From an uncultured Flavobacteriaceae bacterium (lineage in GTDB: Bacteria > Bacteroidota > Bacteroidia > Flavobacteriales > Flavobacteriaceae), in contig CANLCJ010000007.1 in assembly GCA_947489085.1 (NCBI GenBank), positions 1 to 36,466 on the forward strand: a stretch of DNA of 36,466 nt, given 5' to 3'. Below are positions 8,236-21,730 of this stretch, one piece after another. The notes under the pieces are model-generated. The model was not told where the DNA came from. It searched no databases and saw only the letters and a program-made list of their open reading frames with translations. Position numbers and translations under genes: made by a program. Each line of letters opens with the position of its first letter. Position 1 is the stretch's first letter.

Positions 8236-9516
8236 TTATAGACCTGTTGCTATTGTATTTCTACCTCTTTCTTTAATTAATTGTCCTCTTACATCTAAAC
8301 TTCTGTAGGCATCGATAGGGCTTAATACACCACCTGCGTTTAAACGCGCTTTTTCTAACAATGGTCTAACATCTGTTCTATATGCACCTTGTAAAATCTC
8401 TTGACATTTTACAACATCGTTATCTAGCTGTGCTGCTCTTAATGCTTTTTGGTCTATTAACATCGCTTTAGCATAGGCTTCTTGTATTGCTTCTAAAGAT
8501 TGAATTAAATCTTCTAATGGATCTTTTATGTTATGACTTGCATCAATCATCCATGCTAAATCTGGGTTTTGAGGATTGTTTTCCATACCGTAAACCAATT
8601 CGTTGAAAATTAAGAACAACGCATAAGGTTTGATACTTCCTACTGTTAAATCGTCATCACCGTATTTACTATCGTTAAAGTGGAAACCACCTAATTTACC
8701 TTTTAATTGTAAGATAGATACAATTTGTTCTATATTAGAGTTTGGTAAGTGGTGTCCTAAATCTACTAAAGTGTATGCTTTATCACCACAACCATTAGCT
8801 AACATTAAAGATGCTCCCCAATCTTGGATAACTGTACTGTAGAAGTTTGGCTCGTAAGGCTTGTACTCTACTAATAGTTTCCAATCGTCTGGCAACCCTT
8901 TGTAAATGTCTATTAAACTGTCTTGTGTATTTTGAAACGCTGTTTGGAAGTTATTTTGACCTGGAAAAGAAGACCCGTCTGCTAACCATACAGTTAAGGC
9001 TTTAGACCCTAATTTATCACCAATTTTAATAACGTCTAGGTTATGCTGAATGGCTTGTTCTCTTACAGCTTGGCTTGTGTTGCTTAACGAACCATATTTG
9101 TAACTCTCTGAAGCGTCTTTTTGATCTTGAAACGTGTTAGAGTTTACAGCATCAAACTTTATATTTAAAGCATCAGCTTGCTCTTTAATTGCAGCATAAT
9201 CAGAAGGGATGTCCCATGGAATATGTAATGATACTGCTCCAGCAGTTTGTGTTAAGCTATGTAACACTCCTATATCTTCTATTTTTTGTTCTAGACTAGA
9301 AGGTTCTCCATAAAAAGAAAAACGCCCAAAACGCGTTCCACCTGCTCCTAAAGCCCAACTTGGTATTGCAACTTGAAAGTCTGCTAACTTAGATACAATT
9401 GCATTAACATCTTTACCTTGTTTTGTTAATTTATTGGCTAGGAAATCGAAATTATCTTTATGATTGTCTAATCCTGATTTGTTTGATTCTGATACTTGAT
9501 CTTGATTTATTTTCAT
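8236..9516 (-). CDS. rhaI: L-rhamnose isomerase, RhaI type
   Basis: A 426-residue TIM-barrel aldose-ketose isomerase converting L-rhamnose to L-rhamnulose. It resembles the Pseudomonas stutzeri-type enzyme rather than enterobacterial RhaA. The metal-site region is clear: Glu217 in LLVEYKPYEPN, Asp252 in LVDLGHHLP, His279 in GFHFNDSKYGDDDL and the acidic DDD at 287-289. Substrate-barrel residues GAGGTRFGRF lie at 58-66. It is separated from the upstream aldolase gene by 101 bases containing a strong hairpin, and from rhaB by 9 bases. The ATG at 9514-9516 is the first good start. Confidence 0.93.
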   Translation of the reverse strand: MKINQDQVSESNKSGLDNHKDNFDFLANKLTKQGKDVNAIVSKLADFQVAIPSWALGAGGTRFGRFSFYGEPSSLEQKIEDIGVLHSLTQTAGAVSLHIPWDIPSDYAAIKEQADALNIKFDAVNSNTFQDQKDASESYKYGSLSNTSQAVREQAIQHNLDVIKIGDKLGSKALTVWLADGSSFPGQNNFQTAFQNTQDSLIDIYKGLPDDWKLLVEYKPYEPNFYSTVIQDWGASLMLANGCGDKAYTLVDLGHHLPNSNIEQIVSILQLKGKLGGFHFNDSKYGDDDLTVGSIKPYALFLIFNELVYGMENNPQNPDLAWMIDASHNIKDPLEDLIQSLEAIQEAYAKAMLIDQKALRAAQLDNDVVKCQEILQGAYRTDVRPLLEKARLNAGGVLSPIDAYRSLDVRGQLIKERGRNTIATGL

Positions 9517-9544
9517 TTTTGTTGATTACTTAAAAATCAAAAAG

Positions 9545-9586
9545 ATACTTACAAGAACATTAAACTATGAATGTTCCTGTAAGTAT
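9545..9586 (-). terminator. strong intercistronic hairpin between rhaEW and rhaI
   Basis: Bases 9545-9561 and 9570-9586 form a 17-base stem with a single G-U pair and an 8-base loop. On the minus strand it is followed by a T-rich stretch (CTTTTTGATTTTT) 28 bases ahead of the rhaI start. It resembles an intrinsic terminator placed inside the operon. It could act as a partial terminator, or as a 3'-end stabiliser that sets a higher level of the aldolase fusion than of the downstream genes. Confidence 0.7.
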
Positions 9587-9617
9587 GCTTTATAAAATTA
9601 TTTTGAATATTTTAAAC

Positions 9618-11723
9618 TTATCTTACAAAGGCATTAGCCATTCCCCCATCAACATTAATAATGTTTCCAGTAGATTTATCTAATATACCTACTAATGAGA
9701 ATACACCGTTTGCAATATCGTCTGGAGTGATGATAGCGTGTAGTAAGTTTCTCTTAGCGTAAAATGCTGGTAATTCTTCTACGGTAATACCGTTTGCTTT
9801 AGCACGTCCTTCGGCCCAAGCACCTTCCCATATTTTACTACCTACAATAACACCATCTGGGTTTACTGTATTTACTCTTACTTTATCTTTTGCTAATTCA
9901 GCAGCTAATAAACGTACCATGTGCTGTTGTGCTGCTTTTGCAGTACCGTAAGCTACGTTGTTTGGTCCAGCTACTAATCCGTTTTTACTAGCAATAGCGA
10001 TATAATCTCCACCAAGTCCTTGCTGACGAGCGATTGCTGCAAATTGTTTTGCTAAATCGAACTGTCCTTTTACAAGAATGCTTTGTAAAATATTCCAATC
10101 TTTATCTGTAGTATCTTCAATTGGTTTAGAGATTGCTAATCCTGCACTGTGTACAATGATATCTACACCACCAAATTCTAAAATTGCTTTTTTATAAGCA
10201 CTTGCTATAGATTCTGTACTTGTAACATCACATACAGCATATGTAGAAATATCGCGTTTGTATGTTGCGTTAGCTTCTATAAGTGCTTCTTCGTTAATAT
10301 CTGTAAGTACAACATTAGCACCTTGAGCTGCTAATTTATCTGCAATTGCTTTACCAATTCCACCACCTGCACCAGTAACTAAAGCTACTTTACGAGATAA
10401 TGGTAATTCTTTTGGCATACGTTGTAATTTTGCCTCTTCTAGTAACCAATACTCAATATCGAACGCTTCTTGTCTCGGTAAAGATGTATATTCTGTTATA
10501 GCTTCTGCACCACGCATTACGTTAATAGCGTTAATGTAAAACTCACTAGCTACACGTGTTGTTTGCTTGTTTTTTGCAAAACTAAACATACCTACACCTG
10601 GATAAATAATAATTACTGGATTTGCATCACGTATTGCAGGACTGTTGTCTTTTTTACATGTGTTATAGTAATCTACGTATTCTTGACGGTAAGCAGCGAA
10701 TGCTGGCTCTAATTTCTTTAATACGGCATCAGCATCAGATAAATCTTCGTTTTTATCTAATTCTAATACTAAAGGCTGAATTTTTGTTCTCAAGAAGTGA
10801 TCTGGACAAGAAGTACCCATAGGTGCCAATCTTTCTAAATCGTTACTGTTGATGTATTCCATCACCACGTCTGTATCAGAGAAATGTCCAATCATTCTAT
10901 TTTCAGAAGAACATAAACCTCTTAATAACGGCATTAATTGAGACGCTTTTTCTAAACGCTCTTCTTGTGGTAAGCTCTCTACTTTTTGTCCTCCAAAAAC
11001 AGAACCGTTAGCTTCGATCTTTTTTGTAATGTAGTCTGAAGCCATTTCAATAACTTCTAAACTATTCATATAACACTCGTAAGATGTATCTCCCCATGTA
11101 AATAAACCATGGCTACCTAAAACGATACCTCTAATACCTGGGTTATCAGCTAAACACTTTTCTAACTGTAAACCTAAATCGAAACCTGGCTTTTGCCAAG
11201 GCACCCATCCCATTGTGTCTCCCCAAATTTCTTTGGTTACTTTCTCACTATCTTTAGCAGCTGCAACAGCAATAAGTGCATCTGGGTGTAAGTGATCGAT
11301 GTGCGCAAATGGTAATAAACCGTGTAATGGTGTATCGATAGATGGTGCTTTACTATCTAAATCATATATACAGTGATTAAAAAGTCCTACCATACGATCT
11401 TCATCGTGTAACCCTTGGTAAACATTTTTTAAGTCTCTTAATCGTTTTGTGTATAAGCCTGCAATACCAGATCTTGTTAATGTTCCTATGTCTCCACCAG
11501 AACCTTTAACCCACATTACCTCAACTTCCTCATTTGTTAAGGGATCTGTTTCAATAGTTTTACAGCTTGTGTTTCCACCTCCATAATTCGTAATTCTTAA
11601 ATCTGCTCCTAAAATATTAGAACGGTATAAGAATAATTCAACTTGATTGTCGCCTAACGCTGCAGCTTTCTCATCATCCCACAGGTAATCAACATATTTA
11701 AAAGTCTTTGTAATGTTTTCCAT
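9618..11723 (-). CDS. rhaEW: bifunctional L-rhamnulose-1-phosphate aldolase / L-lactaldehyde dehydrogenase
   Basis: A 701-residue fusion. Residues 1-430 form a class II aldolase: the phosphate-binding NYGGGNTSCKT at 46-56 and zinc histidines in FAHIDHLHPDA (141-146) with a further His205 in GSHGLFTW. Residues about 441-701 form a short-chain dehydrogenase: TGAGGGIG at 450-457, Ser579, Tyr592 and Lys596 of the catalytic triad. The first half splits L-rhamnulose-1-phosphate to dihydroxyacetone phosphate and L-lactaldehyde. The second oxidises lactaldehyde to L-lactate with NAD+. This fusion is known from comparative genomics of rhamnose pathways in Bacteroidota and Bacillus. It is the first gene of the operon, with a -7 box 27 bases upstream and the regulator gene divergent. 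Confidence 0.93.
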   Translation of the reverse strand: MENITKTFKYVDYLWDDEKAAALGDNQVELFLYRSNILGADLRITNYGGGNTSCKTIETDPLTNEEVEVMWVKGSGGDIGTLTRSGIAGLYTKRLRDLKNVYQGLHDEDRMVGLFNHCIYDLDSKAPSIDTPLHGLLPFAHIDHLHPDALIAVAAAKDSEKVTKEIWGDTMGWVPWQKPGFDLGLQLEKCLADNPGIRGIVLGSHGLFTWGDTSYECYMNSLEVIEMASDYITKKIEANGSVFGGQKVESLPQEERLEKASQLMPLLRGLCSSENRMIGHFSDTDVVMEYINSNDLERLAPMGTSCPDHFLRTKIQPLVLELDKNEDLSDADAVLKKLEPAFAAYRQEYVDYYNTCKKDNSPAIRDANPVIIIYPGVGMFSFAKNKQTTRVASEFYINAINVMRGAEAITEYTSLPRQEAFDIEYWLLEEAKLQRMPKELPLSRKVALVTGAGGGIGKAIADKLAAQGANVVLTDINEEALIEANATYKRDISTYAVCDVTSTESIASAYKKAILEFGGVDIIVHSAGLAISKPIEDTTDKDWNILQSILVKGQFDLAKQFAAIARQQGLGGDYIAIASKNGLVAGPNNVAYGTAKAAQQHMVRLLAAELAKDKVRVNTVNPDGVIVGSKIWEGAWAEGRAKANGITVEELPAFYAKRNLLHAIITPDDIANGVFSLVGILDKSTGNIINVDGGMANAFVR

Positions 11724-15898: not shown

Positions 15899-16132
15899 AA
15901 CTTTTGAGAGTGGGTTAAAACGGATGCTTTTTGCCTTGCGTTGTGGCAAAGCTCTACCTATAATCAAAAATCATACCTTGTTTTTTGTTTGGACATATAA
16001 TGGTGCAAAAAAATATTTTTTATACTCAGAAGAAATATTATTAAATCCTCAAATCATTAATCATTCACTCAAATACGTATTCTCTAAAAAGAAGATGGAA
16101 AACTGACAACAAAGGCTAATGAGACTACATTC

Positions 16133-17968
16133 CTATTGAAGATATTTTGATTCGTCATAAAACAGGTTAACGCATCCCAAGTTATCCTTAACGATTAAGC
16201 ATGCGTCTCTAAAATCTGCACCATAAGGGCATTTTTCTACTTTTAAACTTTTAACAGTATAGAATTCAATATTGTTAACTTCTTCGTCATTTTCAAAATC
16301 ATAATTAGGTAAGTTTTTTACAAAGTTGGAATTTAATATATTGTTATTTAATTTGGATTCGCCTGTATAGAAAAGAGAAATCACATATACTTTATTTACA
16401 TTTTCAAAAAAAGTATTTAATGTTTTTCTTTTCTTTAATAATTTTCTAATTGTTCTTCCGTCATTTACAACATCAGTGATAATTAAAACATTTTTAAACT
16501 TTCTGTCAGAATTATCATAATTCAACTCATTTTCATAATGGTGATGTTCATCGTGTCTATATGAATAAGGTAAAAAGGCATAAGGTTTATTGAATTTAAT
16601 TGTTGCTTTAGAAGAAATTATATTCCCTTCATATCCTAGACCAATAATTAGGTTAATTCTTTTCTGTAATTCTTTTTTTTCTATAACATCTATTATTGCA
16701 TTTTTGACAAAACTTAAATCTTCATTATTTTCAATAAGTTTTGAGGTGTCAATCCAATTATGTGCTCTAGAAGTTTCACTCCAATGAAAATGACCAGAAT
16801 GGAATAGATTTAATTCTTTTACTTTATCATATAAAACATCGGTGTATTCAGAATTATTATATATATCAACATCTGAGTTCGAAATTTCAATTTCTTGTTT
16901 TTTTGAATTCTCTACTGATGATGATTCTTTTTGAGACGAATCAACTAAATCAATTACTTCATCTTCTAAAGTAGGAGGTTTAGCAACAGATATTTCAAAC
17001 TTTTCTTGTTGTTTCGCTCCTGTGTTACTTCTTTTTTGCCAATAATAAGGGTCATCATTACCACCAACTTTTTGTAACCCATAAATATGATTTATTAGGA
17101 TAATATTATCAGCATCATTATTTTCCAGTTCATATATTTTAAAAGCACTGTCATCCTTTTTAGAGGACAAAGTCCCTGAGTCCGATATTGTTATAGAACC
17201 TCCAGCTATTTTTTTACAACCACTAGTATGTTCGTTTCCTGAAAAAATGAATTTAATATTATTCGATTCCAAGGCTGTAGTAAATGCTAATCTATTTTCT
17301 GTATTCCATTGGCCAGAGTTTTTGTCTTCGTAAAGAGAAGTAATGTTATGGTGACAGCAAATCACATTTTTTAATTCGGAATCTTTTGTTATTTCTTTTA
17401 ATTCAAGTTTAAATTTCTGTACATCTATTTTGCCTTCTGTGTTTTCCAAATCTACGTAGTAAGATGAATTTACACCTAACAACAAAAATCTGTTTTCAAT
17501 TTCTAAAGTATCGAATATGACTTTATTTGGATCGAATTTTTTACCCAAAATTGATTTATAGAATGTTGAAAAATTCTTAAGTTTCTCGACATTTATTTCT
17601 TCTTTGTTATAAGTTTCCTTGGAGTATATTAAATTTTCAATATCCTTTCTGTTGATATCATGATCGCCTGGAATTAAGAGAATACAGTCTTTTTTAATGT
17701 TCAATTCAGTGATTATATTTTCTAAATATTTTTTTGCATAATTAAATTCAAGTTCAGCACCACAATCTGTAATATCTCCAGTAACTAATAAATAAATTTT
17801 TTTAGAACTGAATTCTTGTTTCACCTTTTGTATAAGTTTATCAATATATTGTAGAGAAGATTCCTCTTTGGAAGCTCTCAAAAAAGAGTCTGAATTAATA
17901 CGTTCTTCTTTAAGTTTTTTGTCAAGAGATACGTGAAAATCGGAAATATGTAGAATTATACTATCCAT
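16133..17968 (-). CDS. calcineurin-like phosphoesterase fused to orotate-type phosphoribosyltransferase
   Basis: A 611-residue protein, third gene of a coupled operon (its ATG overlaps the stop of the preceding gene by 8 bases). Residues 1-300 are a metallophosphoesterase: D10xH12, GD65, GDH(102-104 DHD), H206-H207 and GNEH (244-247). Two positions differ from the usual motifs: GNHD is GDHD, and GHxH is GNEH. Residues about 310-365 are a charged, Ser/Glu-rich linker. Residues about 375-570 are a type I phosphoribosyltransferase: an orotate-PRT-like opening HSGHFHWSETSRAHNWID, GLGYEGNIIS, and the PRPP loop IITDVVNDGRT (496-506). The tail has Cys580 and Cys590. It lacks a signal peptide, so it is cytoplasmic. 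A role in making or removing a nucleotide-type molecule is inferred; no named family is recognised. Confidence 0.85.
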   Translation of the reverse strand: MDSIILHISDFHVSLDKKLKEERINSDSFLRASKEESSLQYIDKLIQKVKQEFSSKKIYLLVTGDITDCGAELEFNYAKKYLENIITELNIKKDCILLIPGDHDINRKDIENLIYSKETYNKEEINVEKLKNFSTFYKSILGKKFDPNKVIFDTLEIENRFLLLGVNSSYYVDLENTEGKIDVQKFKLELKEITKDSELKNVICCHHNITSLYEDKNSGQWNTENRLAFTTALESNNIKFIFSGNEHTSGCKKIAGGSITISDSGTLSSKKDDSAFKIYELENNDADNIILINHIYGLQKVGGNDDPYYWQKRSNTGAKQQEKFEISVAKPPTLEDEVIDLVDSSQKESSSVENSKKQEIEISNSDVDIYNNSEYTDVLYDKVKELNLFHSGHFHWSETSRAHNWIDTSKLIENNEDLSFVKNAIIDVIEKKELQKRINLIIGLGYEGNIISSKATIKFNKPYAFLPYSYRHDEHHHYENELNYDNSDRKFKNVLIITDVVNDGRTIRKLLKKRKTLNTFFENVNKVYVISLFYTGESKLNNNILNSNFVKNLPNYDFENDEEVNNIEFYTVKSLKVEKCPYGADFRDACLIVKDNLGCVNLFYDESKYLQ

Positions 17969-18980
17969 TAAGCTTTTTTAAGTTTGTATATATGTAATAA
18001 TTTAACTCAACATTGTTTTTATCAGTAATAGAAAATACTGAGATAGTTCTATCTATCGAATCCAAATCTAAATCTTCCCTAGTTAGTGTTTCAATTTTAG
18101 CTAGAGATACATTTCCTAAATATTTACCTCCAGAAAATTCTATTAAATTTTTAGTTATCTTGACTTCAGTTCCTAAACAAACTAAATCAGAAACAACAAT
18201 ATATTTTTTGTTTTCGTAATTATGTTTTTCAAGTTTATTGTAGAGTTTATTTATTGGTCCAATTTTATCGAAAACAAGAATATCTAGTTTTAATAATTTA
18301 GATAACACCGAAACAATAAATGTACTTGTAAGACTTTGACCTACTAGAATTGGTTTGTCTTTGAGATTAGATTCCCAATTTTCTTTAATTTTTATTGCTA
18401 ATCTATATAGTGCGTAATAAATAAATGGAGTTTCAAAACTGATGAACTTTTTTAAATCTATAAATGAATGTAAGTAAACAAAAGAAGAAGCATGCGGTTT
18501 CTTATATTCATCAATATATTTTATTAACCGTTTTTTAAACTCATAGTAAAAAATGTTTCCCCTTTCTATATCTATTTGGTATAAATCAGATTTTTGTTCA
18601 GAGAAAAAATAAAATATATCATAGTCGTCTTTGCTATTAAGTATGTTCTTTGAGTTTTCAATTGTATTTAGTGCTAAAGGTTTAATTAGCTTTTCTGATA
18701 TATTCATTAAAACTAATTTGTGCCCTAAGTCTCTAATTTCAATTATTTTATCAATTATATTTGATTGAACATTTTGAATATTGTTAAAATCAAGAACTAT
18801 ATTATTAAATTGACCTGATGCTTTTTTTAAGAAGTTAAAAAGTCTGTTTACTGTTTCAAATTGTAAACTTGAAATGTAAATACCTTGATTATCATCATTT
18901 AAATAATTAGATGAAATCACTTCTTCTGCATGTAGATTTATGTAGCTGTAATTCAGAGTTTTTATTAGCGATACTATCAT
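17961..18980 (-). CDS. STAS-like domain plus phosphoribosyltransferase-like protein
   Basis: A 339-residue cytoplasmic protein, second gene of the cassette. It starts two bases after the stop of the GHKL gene and overlaps the next gene by 8 bases. Residues about 35-125 look like a STAS-type alpha/beta domain: IVLDFNNIQNVQSNIIDKII followed by GHKLVLMNISEKLIKPL, the strand-helix-strand pattern of anti-sigma-factor antagonists. Residues about 150-330 look like a type I phosphoribosyltransferase: HASSFVYLHSFIDLKKFIS near the start, KPILVGQSLTSTFIVSVLSKLL, and a PRPP-loop equivalent IVVSDLVCLGTEVK (261-274) with Asp265, Gly270 and Thr271. The loop is not canonical, so activity is uncertain. Domain calls are by eye. 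Confidence 0.75.
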   Translation of the reverse strand: MIVSLIKTLNYSYINLHAEEVISSNYLNDDNQGIYISSLQFETVNRLFNFLKKASGQFNNIVLDFNNIQNVQSNIIDKIIEIRDLGHKLVLMNISEKLIKPLALNTIENSKNILNSKDDYDIFYFFSEQKSDLYQIDIERGNIFYYEFKKRLIKYIDEYKKPHASSFVYLHSFIDLKKFISFETPFIYYALYRLAIKIKENWESNLKDKPILVGQSLTSTFIVSVLSKLLKLDILVFDKIGPINKLYNKLEKHNYENKKYIVVSDLVCLGTEVKITKNLIEFSGGKYLGNVSLAKIETLTREDLDLDSIDRTISVFSITDKNNVELNYYIYTNLKKLNG

Positions 18981-18982
18981 AA

Positions 18983-20203
18983 TTAAGCAGTTGGTATTTC
19001 TACTTCAATGTGAACTCCTTTAAATCTTACATTATAAAATCTAATTGAAGAATATTTGAAATCATTGTTATACTTATTACATAGGTTGTGATAAAATTTC
19101 ACAAAGAACTCTAGAATATCATTTTTAATGGAAATCATTTCTCCATTATATCTTTCATCGTCTATTTTGTTGATTACAATATTTTTGTGCAAATCAAACA
19201 AAGTGTTTCTGAGAGAACTTAATTCTTTCAGCTCATCTCTCATTCGATTAGAGATAATAATTTGAGCATTATTTGAATGTAGTCTAAAGTATCCATTAGA
19301 GTTTAAAACAACAGAAGTCATTAAATCAAATAAACCTCTTCTATCTTTTAAAGAAGAAAAAAATAATGTTTCAATTATGTAGTTCAAATTATTTAGAATT
19401 TTATCATTTACTTGTAAAATTTTAATAGAATCCAGTTTGTTTTTTAATTCTAAGGGTTTGTAAATAACACTTTCTCTTTTAGTGTTTAAAGATTCTTCAA
19501 AACCAATACCGTTATCTGAAATTGAAAATTTAGTTGAAAATTTATTAACAAACATCAATGCAAAAGTGTTTGATTTTGAGTGCAAAACACCGTTAGTAAT
19601 TAATTCGGAGAGTATTTCAATATAAAAATCAGATTTTAAAGACGTATTAATATTGTCAAATAATAATTCTTGAAAATGTTCTCTTACGATATAAGTGTAC
19701 TCAGAAATAAGGTAGTCTCTTTTTTCATCCTCATTCTCGAATTCTTTAAGTTTTTCAAATAGATTATTGTCATTTAATGAATAGCACCTAACTCTATGCT
19801 CTGGTCTTGGATTATTCTTGTTGAAATCACCCAAAAATCTTTTATCGTAATGTAAAATATTTCTTCCGTATGGAAAATATGGATTTGTGTTATCACCTGA
19901 TATATTGAAGAAATCACTACTCATTAAAAATTTTAAGACGTCTTTTGTCGCCTGATTATTATATAATGATAATTCTATTGGTTTCTTGTAAAACTTACTT
20001 AGTTGTTCTATCAAGCTTAGTAATAATGGAATAGTAATTGGGTCTATTTTATAACTAGATTCATGAACTAGATTGTCGCCATGTTCAACAAATTTAAAAT
20101 CAATGGTATCATTTTCTTTAATATAAAGAGCTACTTCTTTTAAAAAAGAAGTGTAAAATTTGAAAGTGGTTAAGTTTTCATTGTTCTTTAAAATACTTAT
20201 CAT
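18983..20203 (-). CDS. STAS-like plus GHKL ATPase protein
   Basis: A 406-residue cytoplasmic protein, first gene of the cassette. Residues about 1-105 are alpha/beta and STAS-like (ITIPLLLSLIEQLSKFYKKPIELSLYNN and on). The middle is a GHKL (gyrase/Hsp90/histidine kinase) ATP-binding domain: the N box EILSELITNGVLHSKS with Glu200, Asn204 and His208, the G1 box SDNGIGFEES (229-238), and a later DRRGLFDLMTSVV (287-299) that fits the G2 region. There is no dimerisation/phosphoacceptor His box and no membrane segment, so it resembles anti-sigma-type kinases or stand-alone ATPase switches rather than a classical sensor kinase. It is probably the controlling component for the two phosphoribosyltransferase-like proteins encoded just downstream. 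Confidence 0.8.
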   Translation of the reverse strand: MISILKNNENLTTFKFYTSFLKEVALYIKENDTIDFKFVEHGDNLVHESSYKIDPITIPLLLSLIEQLSKFYKKPIELSLYNNQATKDVLKFLMSSDFFNISGDNTNPYFPYGRNILHYDKRFLGDFNKNNPRPEHRVRCYSLNDNNLFEKLKEFENEDEKRDYLISEYTYIVREHFQELLFDNINTSLKSDFYIEILSELITNGVLHSKSNTFALMFVNKFSTKFSISDNGIGFEESLNTKRESVIYKPLELKNKLDSIKILQVNDKILNNLNYIIETLFFSSLKDRRGLFDLMTSVVLNSNGYFRLHSNNAQIIISNRMRDELKELSSLRNTLFDLHKNIVINKIDDERYNGEMISIKNDILEFFVKFYHNLCNKYNNDFKYSSIRFYNVRFKGVHIEVEIPTA

Positions 20204-20408
20204 TTAATTTTTATAAAGTTATTTTGTTTACATCTAACAACTATACCTACTCAAGTACAATCGCACATAGTAGACCCCACCAAAATAACACTTTCCCTAC
20301 AAACAAACCACCCTACTTCAAAAAAAATACCCAAAATCACCTACAAAATCATAGCATAACCTTCGGCTTTATTTATCCATTTGTTATTTCTAACACCATT
20401 TAATGCCT

Positions 20409-20416
20409 TATGTTTG
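20409..20416 (+). promoter_or_regulatory. candidate -7 box of the LRR kinase gene
   Basis: TATGTTTG matches TAnnTTTG and lies 21 bases before the preferred ATG at 20438. A TTTG at 20380-20383 is 25 bases upstream, somewhat farther than usual. The 234-base region is shared with the divergent cassette, for which no clear promoter box could be found. Confidence 0.35.
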
Positions 20417-20437
20417 CAGCCAATTATATCGATAAAC

Positions 20438-21730
20438 ATGGTACATACATTAGAAGCCTTAAAATCTGGTGCACTCGTTGGGACAAAACGCTTAAAATTA
20501 GCCTGTGGTTTAACTGAATTTCCTGAAGAGATTTTAAGTCTTGCTGATACTTTAGAGGTATTGGATTTATCGGATAACGCCATGTCTATCCTACCTGATA
20601 GCATTTCGCAATTAAAAAAGCTAAAAATCATCTTTTTTGCCAAGAACAACTTTACTGTTTTCCCTGCTGTATTGGCAAAATGTCCAGCCTTGAGTATGAT
20701 TGGTTTTAAGTCGAATGCCATCACAACCGTACCAGAGCAGGCCTTTCCGCCTTTATTAAGATGGCTCATCCTTACCGATAATAAGATTGAGGTGTTACCA
20801 AAAAGTATAGGGCATTACCATTTACTTCAAAAATGTGCCTTGGCAGGAAATCGAATTAAAGCGCTCCCTGCTGAAATGGCCCACTGTTTAAATTTAGAAT
20901 TGTTAAGACTCTCTGCGAATGCGCTGCAATCCATACCTGACTGGCTTTTTGAATTGCCACGTTTATCTTGGGTGGCCTTTGGAGGCAATCCTGCGACCTA
21001 TACTCCAAAATCAAAGTCCGCTATAAGCACGTTTGATTGGGACGATTTCGCTATCGACACGTTGTTAGGTGAAGGTGCTTCTGGGTTTATCTCTAAAGCA
21101 CATTGGATTTCTAAATCAAAAGACGTTGCCATCAAAATTTTTAAAGGTGCAGTAACAAGCGATGGCTTACCAGAGGACGAAATGAAAGCGTCCATTTTGG
21201 CAGGTGCACATCCCAATTTAATTCCAGTTTTGGGAAAGATAAGCAAACACCCAGAGGCTAAAAATGGTTTGGTTTTAAAACTTATAGGGACGTCTTTTAA
21301 GAACTTAGGCAACCCACCGAGTTTAGAGAGCTGTACCCGAGATGTTTTTGACGCTACCTCTAGTTTTAGTCATGCTGATATATTGAAAATTGCCAAAAGC
21401 ATAGCCGCTGTTGCCCAACAATTACATCAAAAAGGCATTAACCATGGCGATCTGTACGCGCATAATATATTGGTAGATACTACTGCAGATTGCCTTTTGG
21501 GTGATTTTGGCGCGGCATCTTTTTATGATACCAATACACCTATAGCGCATAATATTGAACGTATTGAGGTTAACGCTTATGGCTGTTTATTAGAAGATCT
21601 ATTGGAACAGTCTGATCTGTCTGAAGCGCTTCAACATAAATGGCAGGCACTCATTGCCAATTGTACTGCAAAAACGGTTAGCACACGTCCTGGTTTTTCG
21701 GATATTGTAAACACGCTAAAGGCCTTTTAA
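20438..21730 (+). CDS. leucine-rich-repeat protein kinase
   Basis: A 430-residue cytoplasmic protein with no signal peptide. Residues about 1-185 contain seven or so leucine-rich repeats of the LxxLxLxxNxLxxLPxxI type (LEVLDLSDNAMSILPDSI, LRWLILTDNKIEVLPKSI and so on). Residues about 205-430 form a eukaryotic-like protein kinase: glycine loop GEGASG (211-216), Lys233 in AIKIF, Glu248, catalytic loop HGDLYAHN (336-343) with Asp338 and Asn343, and DFG at 356-358. All key residues are present, so it should be active. The frame is open to a TTG at 20381, but the ATG at 20438 is preferred. It is divergent from the phosphoribosyltransferase cassette, convergent with the sulfatases, and visibly less AT-rich than the cassette. 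Target unknown. Confidence 0.85.
   Translation: MVHTLEALKSGALVGTKRLKLACGLTEFPEEILSLADTLEVLDLSDNAMSILPDSISQLKKLKIIFFAKNNFTVFPAVLAKCPALSMIGFKSNAITTVPEQAFPPLLRWLILTDNKIEVLPKSIGHYHLLQKCALAGNRIKALPAEMAHCLNLELLRLSANALQSIPDWLFELPRLSWVAFGGNPATYTPKSKSAISTFDWDDFAIDTLLGEGASGFISKAHWISKSKDVAIKIFKGAVTSDGLPEDEMKASILAGAHPNLIPVLGKISKHPEAKNGLVLKLIGTSFKNLGNPPSLESCTRDVFDATSSFSHADILKIAKSIAAVAQQLHQKGINHGDLYAHNILVDTTADCLLGDFGAASFYDTNTPIAHNIERIEVNAYGCLLEDLLEQSDLSEALQHKWQALIANCTAKTVSTRPGFSDIVNTLKAF

Follow-up and report, generated by a model that had tools for sequence, protein, structure and literature searches.

GHKL and STAS proteins are encoded together with an effector in VapKSC, in which the kinase, a STAS-GHKL protein, has been proposed to release the PIN toxin from the STAS protein that holds it; the operon protects against a phage, and 103 of 289 cases of VapKSC or CapK-CapS lie within 10 kb of immune genes (PMC13373217). 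Metallophosphatases are also known from phage defence. DS-9 consists of the metallophosphatase DS-9A and a HAD protein, DS-8 is a metallophosphatase-NACHT protein, and the catalytic phosphatase residues of DS-8 and DS-9A are needed for defence (PMC13092281). For Ter systems, a nucleotide signal involving phosphoribosyltransferases (PRTases) paired with phosphoesterases has been proposed (PMC7824862). The present analysis concerns a three-gene cassette from an uncultured Flavobacteriaceae bacterium, encoding a GHKL protein, a STAS-like PRTase protein and a phosphoesterase-PRTase. It lies on contig CANLCJ010000007.1 (assembly GCA_947489085.1), of which the whole stretch analysed, 36,466 nucleotides, is termed the window.

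The three genes are a real, mobile and conserved combination, undescribed within the searches made, and a variant of the GHKL-STAS-effector layout. They form an operon on the minus strand, with the following features.

18983..20203, minus strand: GHKL ATPase/kinase-like gene, first in the operon (406 amino acids; open reading frame, ORF)
17961..18980, minus strand: STAS-like and PRTase-like gene, second in the operon (339 amino acids; ORF)
16133..17968, minus strand: metallophosphoesterase and orotate-PRTase-like gene, third in the operon (611 amino acids; ORF and family matches)
16142..20238, no strand: extent alignable with Aquimarina latercula at 94% DNA identity (blastn)
15979..20274, no strand: segment exchanged in the same-genus relative G006 (blastn)

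The original prediction had described three tightly coupled genes with no named counterpart. An ORF check of the window reproduced its coordinates exactly, together with the 2-base gap between the GHKL and STAS-PRTase genes and the 8-base overlap of the STAS-PRTase and phosphoesterase-PRTase genes; for the STAS-like part that it assigned to the GHKL protein, no match was found. No named family covers the full set in Pfam, PADLOC or NCBIfam, and no description of the combination was found in the literature searched, most subscription journals being outside its coverage.

Conservation and mobility of the cassette

Searches for relatives used the middle protein, the GHKL protein and, of the third protein (the putative effector), the PRTase part; the 2,000 genome look-ups came from draws that overlap one another and all lie within one phylum. 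Beside the window copy, 11 further copies were found: one, highly divergent (L030), comes from another class of the phylum, of which four genomes were searched and one carried the cassette, and the other ten belong to the window's order. The gene order GHKL, STAS-PRTase, phosphoesterase-PRTase is the same in all 12 loci read, window included. The recurrence in distant genomes that the original prediction had named as support was seen, and homologues were linked rather than scattered, with the exception of a phosphoesterase-PRTase found by itself on a viral contig of Mu-like layout (L026). The middle protein was present in 3 of 149 relatives. For the order the figure was 5 of 395 genomes, for a second family 6 of 246 and for the class 1 of 395; the window's own genome, which has one copy, is counted in the 149, order and class draws and not in the 246. 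The GHKL profile matched 3 of 395 phylum genomes, one of them merely via a short kinase-like fragment, and the effector PRTase profile matched 3 of 395 genomes. Two of the carriers have names, Aquimarina latercula and Cellulophaga baltica, on which basis the order is regarded as Flavobacteriales.

Identity to the window among the ten other closer copies is 44–97% for the STAS-PRTase protein and for the GHKL protein and 41–93% for the phosphoesterase-PRTase; for the L030 copy it is 21% and 23% in two of the three proteins. The second and third genes overlap by 8 bases in eight of the 12 loci and by 1–23 bases in the remainder. The three genes are inherited together: distances among their proteins correlate at r 0.96–0.98 over 11 cassettes (0 of 2000 permutations as good), and the per-gene trees are largely concordant. 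The clear exception is the third gene of L015, which groups with that of L004 (99% support) and so elsewhere than its other two genes, suggesting recombination.

Comparison of the window with A. latercula reveals 93.8% DNA identity over 16142–20238 (4,097 bases; blastn), and with C. baltica 85.5% over 16143–20205; beyond the cassette, the flanks are unalignable with either species in the 6.5 kb compared. In the same-genus relative G006, window 15979–20274 is swapped for a different 4.16-kb segment (L043:7321-11477), which contains DUF4272, GNAT, DUF2947 and DUF1877 genes, while the flanks are 91–96% identical; gene 2 of the cassette has no match in G006. The GC content is 24–29% inside the segment versus 39–44% just outside, a contrast tempered by a further low-GC stretch in the window at 11.5–13 kb. 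When the 164 neighbour ORFs of the 12 loci were compared all against all (E <= 1e-5), solely integrase-like and DUF4365-TPR genes proved common to different loci. As no other constant gene occurs in the flanks, the transferred unit is the three genes alone, and on these alignments the cassette moves by itself, as a unit, between genera.

Mutually similar integrase-like genes or fragments lie near three cassettes (L005:8286-9530, L015:6583-7818 and, as a fragment, L025:13151-13606). That of L005 is a phage integrase in Pfam, and these genes are a possible transfer route. Beside the exchange site in the window, 20381–21730 encodes, as judged by eye, leucine-rich repeats fused to a protein kinase; this flanking gene was found in one of 18 other genomes searched (G006). 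Searches of plasmid and phage proteins with the window proteins and divergent copies gave no match beyond four weak phosphoesterase matches, and scans of viral contigs for the GHKL and STAS-PRTase proteins gave nothing useful.

The solo form in L026 (10001-11773) is 31% identical to the effector and retains canonical metal motifs. Its contig carries rve transposase, AAA_22 and S24-repressor genes in a Mu-like layout, with the solo gene near the S24-type repressor, and neither a GHKL nor a STAS-PRTase gene is present in the 13.4 kb examined. This suggests that the phosphoesterase-PRTase is able to stand alone. A reverse transcriptase gene is also found on this contig, at 206-1237.

Domain make-up of the three proteins

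Four domains are predicted in the second and third genes.

17069-17968, minus strand: metallophosphoesterase domain of the third gene, approximately amino acids 1–300 (DS9_1/DS8 models, PDB 2xmo)
16136-16846, minus strand: orotate-PRTase-like domain of the third gene, approximately amino acids 375–611 (pyrE match)
18651-18947, minus strand: STAS-like domain of the second gene, approximately amino acids 12–110 (Pfam STAS, NCBIfam DauA, model neighbours)
17964-18551, minus strand: PRTase-like domain of the second gene, approximately amino acids 144–339 (profile match)

In NCBIfam, the third protein of the window matches DS9_1_antiphage (E 1.3e-21), DS8_antiphage (4.1e-20) and pyrE (9.2e-6), all under the curated cut-offs; it also matches PDB 2xmo (E 1.2e-13). 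The DS9_1 model matches all 11 effector members and DS8 six of them. These matches indicate a distant relationship of the phosphoesterase domain to DS-9 (DS-9A) and DS-8, anti-phage proteins that have been tested. A weak PADLOC 'Effector/Endonuclease' match (PDLC00736) on the same part was taken as superfamily-level similarity. The metal motifs DxH, GD and H are kept in 11/11 aligned effector rows. In all 11 closer cassettes GNHD has become GDHD and GHxH has become GNEH; L030 has GNHD and GDCH, and L026 the canonical GNHD and GHEH. The expected ATP-site residues of the GHKL protein, and some of those at the metal site of the effector, are thereby shown.

The C-terminal part of the effector matches pyrE in 6/11 members and the orotate-PRTase-like PRK02277 in 7/11 (E <= 1e-5), with a Pfam PRTase score of 17.5 bits against a cut-off of 26.3. 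Its hood and C-terminal CPY segment are conserved. The phosphoribosyl pyrophosphate (PRPP) loop reads T-D-V-V-N-D-G-R-T in the effector and SDLVCLGTE in the middle protein. The first acidic residue of the motif is missing from both cassette PRTases in the copies read; in effector copies it is replaced by T or S, by F in L026 and by I in L030. The second D and the T are retained in the copies read, as is the G except in one effector copy. By contrast, the first acidic residue is present in all five canonical PRTases of the same genome in which the motif was read (seven score above the Pfam cut-off). Catalysis by the two PRTases as synthases is therefore doubtful, and the proposal in the original prediction that both build or salvage a modified nucleotide finds no support. 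In L015 (8359-9939; genome G203) the effector gene has an in-frame stop inside the PRTase part.

In the second protein, the N-terminal part matches Pfam STAS at E 0.16 and the NCBIfam DauA C-terminal region at E 0.23. The nearest structures to its model are RsbS and other STAS proteins; the best neighbours (6jhk, 3ztb and 6m36) include one chain of an RsbV/RsbW complex. The STAS identity is of moderate strength. On weaker evidence, from profile comparison, the remainder may be a divergent paralogue of the effector PRTase. It aligns at E 0.0055 over 128 columns with a profile containing effector PRTases (none of 184 usable shuffles did as well), whereas a profile of canonical PRTases alone gives no match (E 0.62). 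A Pfam PRTase match is absent from all ten members, and a PDB sequence search found nothing at E <= 10. The PRTase fold was not among the structural neighbours of the low-confidence C-terminal half of the model, a half that was barely tested. With narrower alignments, the STAS-PRTase and phosphoesterase-PRTase profiles overlap only at the PRPP loops (E 0.15); against the GHKL protein, 14 columns align, without meaning. Sub-cut-off Pfam matches to DUF5734, CdiA_C and IMS were dropped as weak. Directly downstream of the divergent cassette, L030:7178-8422 encodes a 414-amino-acid product with no Pfam match and a faint similarity to the STAS region of the middle protein (E 0.0011, small set).

A phosphorylation-type switch, in the manner of the anti-sigma/antagonist pairs named by the original prediction, finds no conserved serine at the inferred position of the STAS domain. 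The putative phosphosite, placed at amino acid 74 by a weak alignment and the SpoIIAA motif, is Asn in eight of ten sequences, Thr in L025 and Ala in L030, and amino acid 73 is variable. This weakens the kinase version of the switch. Ser24 and Thr43 (9/10 sequences) are the remaining candidate phosphosites, or the switch may act by binding alone.

In the GHKL protein, the GHKL part spans approximately amino acids 160–406 and follows about 135 N-terminal residues of unproven fold. HATPase_c was matched in nine of ten members, the window copy being below the Pfam cut-off, and E200/N204/H208, D230-x-G232-I-G234, K286 and G290 are invariant in all ten aligned members. None of the ten has a STAS match, which lends the STAS-like part claimed for this protein no support. 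STAT-4 as a match to the N-terminus (E 0.18) was dropped as weak, as was a short N-box match in G486, a 127-amino-acid ORF without the two partner genes in the 8.4 kb examined. In L007 of C. baltica (8778-9998) there is an in-frame stop early in the GHKL gene; the other two cassette genes are open.

Function and genomic neighbourhood

The role of the cassette is probably defensive. Tentatively, it may be a horizontally moving conflict module, most likely anti-phage and abortive-infection-like, composed of a switch, a holder and an effector. A defence function, a pairing of the PRTases, a direction of control, a substrate and a trigger may be inferred, and would give the following scheme. The phosphoesterase-PRTase would be the effector, hydrolysing a nucleotide or nucleotide-like substrate and so crippling the infected cell. 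The STAS-PRTase could hold it inactive through PRTase pairing, with the STAS domain as the handle of the switch. Dimers are the usual working form of type I PRTases; as the middle PRTase appears to be a diverged paralogue of the effector PRTase, the two probably pair. The GHKL protein may be a switch driven by ATP. Like RsbT/RsbW/VapK-type proteins it would bind the STAS domain, and a trigger such as phage or DNA stress would make it free the effector. Of the interpretation in the original prediction, the coherent three-gene unit is supported, whereas two nucleotide-building PRTases and a phosphorylation-type switch find no support. A bolder version is less likely: a defence system in which a pseudo-enzyme PRTase with a STAS handle is an antitoxin-like holder released by the GHKL protein, and the effector uses an unusual PRPP- or nucleotide-dependent chemistry unknown in immunity.

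Recognised conflict genes, among them Hachiman, Septu-like, SIR2–HerA and CRISPR genes, are present in the fetched flanks of seven of the 12 loci. Family scans of individual loci, for which neighbour genes were chosen by eye, gave the following; L004 and L024 were scanned just in a pooled set without member names, and the flanks of the window and L007 lay outside the family scan.

L005 flank: HamB, PtuA-like/PDC-M01 and integrase; HamA in the pooled scan (one of 61 neighbours)
L006 flank: an Mrr_cat part and an M78 peptidase part in one protein
L015 flank: giant protein that matches methyltransferases and helicases (best E 2.9e-18)
L016 flank: SIR2, HerA and OLD-like
L017 flank: HD-CE-GHKL and KAP
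L025 flank: reverse transcriptase and HisKin-conflict
L030 flank: Cas3, Cas7, Cas6 and ThiF
L023 flank: DUF4365-TPR alone seen

Burroughs and Aravind have reportedly worked on conflict-system 'CE' domains. In L025 (15203-17711) the reverse transcriptase is directly followed by the HisKin-conflict protein, possibly a retron- or DRT-like defence pair. The DUF4365-TPR proteins L023:14807-16792 and L025:5777-7714 are related, lie near two different cassettes and could be a recurrent companion; they were excluded from the defence gene count.

As controls for the neighbourhoods, windows at a distance of half a contig were taken in eight of the genomes; the comparison covered eight of the 12 loci and ORFs of at least 150 amino acids within 7.5 kb, limits that place HamB of L005 outside it. 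PADLOC models at E <= 1e-25 numbered 84 among 61 neighbour ORFs (25 listed) versus 5 among 73 control ORFs, the control matches being more generic; this contrast is overstated because PADLOC models are redundant. Counted as genes, the contrast weakens: by name there are six or seven defence genes versus roughly four in the controls (one-sided Fisher 0.17–0.27, not significant), and P values range over 0.09–0.36 across all gene-count pairs tried. Enrichment in defence islands is suggestive only; of the signs of defence islands and mobile elements sought by the original prediction, transfer between genera and defence-type neighbours at several loci were seen, and an excess over control windows was not significant.

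Alternatively, the PRTase-like domains may be sensors, binding PRPP or a nucleotide that shifts in infection and triggering the switch, with the phosphoesterase as the sole enzyme. PRTase folds act as ligand-binding regulators elsewhere (PurR and PyrR), and a PRPP motif that is partly lost, with the second D and T kept and the G kept in all but one effector copy, would suit such a role. However, the hood and CPY segment of the effector PRTase suggest that the architecture of the active site has been maintained, and this explanation is considered unlikely.

The same low probability is given to a Ter-like nucleotide-signal system, as first envisaged, in which the PRTases would make a nucleotide-derived messenger, the phosphoesterase would remove it and GHKL and STAS would gate the process. 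Two PRTase-type domains and a phosphoesterase do occur in a single operon, a combination also proposed for Ter systems (PMC7824862). The flanks of different copies share no receptor or effector gene, however, and this reading also meets the loss of the first acidic PRPP residue from both PRTases in the copies read and the lack of a PRTase family match in all ten middle proteins. Least probable is a selfish module, of toxin-antitoxin-like or stress type and without a particular anti-phage role, which would fit the co-inheritance, mobility and translational coupling of the genes, the in-frame stop in one gene in two of 12 copies and the non-significant defence-gene excess, but not the complete multi-gene defence sets that adjoin the cassette at several loci.

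If the conflict-module reading is correct, the GHKL-STAS switch would be a plug-in device with which bacteria control killing enzymes of quite different kinds, and PRTase chemistry or sensing would join the short list of nucleotide-based immune strategies. The cassette is a compact, naturally mobile unit of 4.1 kb and is directly testable, with the solo L026 phosphoesterase-PRTase as a natural comparison.

Relation to described systems

The effector C-terminus resembles PyrE in matching pyrE and the orotate-PRTase-like PRK02277, but the window score is below the curated cut-offs and the first acidic PRPP residue is replaced. Ter-associated PRTase operons share with the cassette the occurrence of PRTases and phosphoesterases in a conflict setting; they differ in that the cassette phosphoesterase is calcineurin-like and not HAD (PMC7824862). 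No Ter family was found among the neighbour proteins scanned with Pfam.

The stressosome and SigB modules (RsbT-RsbS and RsbW-RsbV) likewise set a GHKL protein beside a STAS-like protein, and 6jhk, 3ztb and 6m36 are neighbours of the model, whereas in the cassette a fused PRTase and a phosphoesterase-PRTase take the place of the sigma factor or phosphatase as output. With DS-9 and DS-8, the cassette shares a related metallophosphoesterase domain in its effector (PMC13092281). The window effector scores 77 and 71 bits against curated cut-offs of 420 and 790, its partners are GHKL and STAS-PRTase genes, and its phosphoesterase is fused to a PRTase; among the part of the neighbours scanned with Pfam, no HAD family, the partner type of DS-9, was found.

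The closest described design is that of VapKSC/CapKS, which the original prediction did not name (PMC13373217). In the cassette, a PRTase replaces the short tail or wHTH of the STAS protein and a phosphoesterase-PRTase replaces the VapC-like PIN nuclease as putative effector; there is no conserved serine at the inferred STAS phosphosite, and the GHKL protein has no STAS match. As the effector differs, membership of VapKSC is not claimed. The likeness lies in the order of a GHKL gene, a STAS gene and a third gene as the putative effector in 12/12 loci, and in the association with immune genes (PMC13373217).

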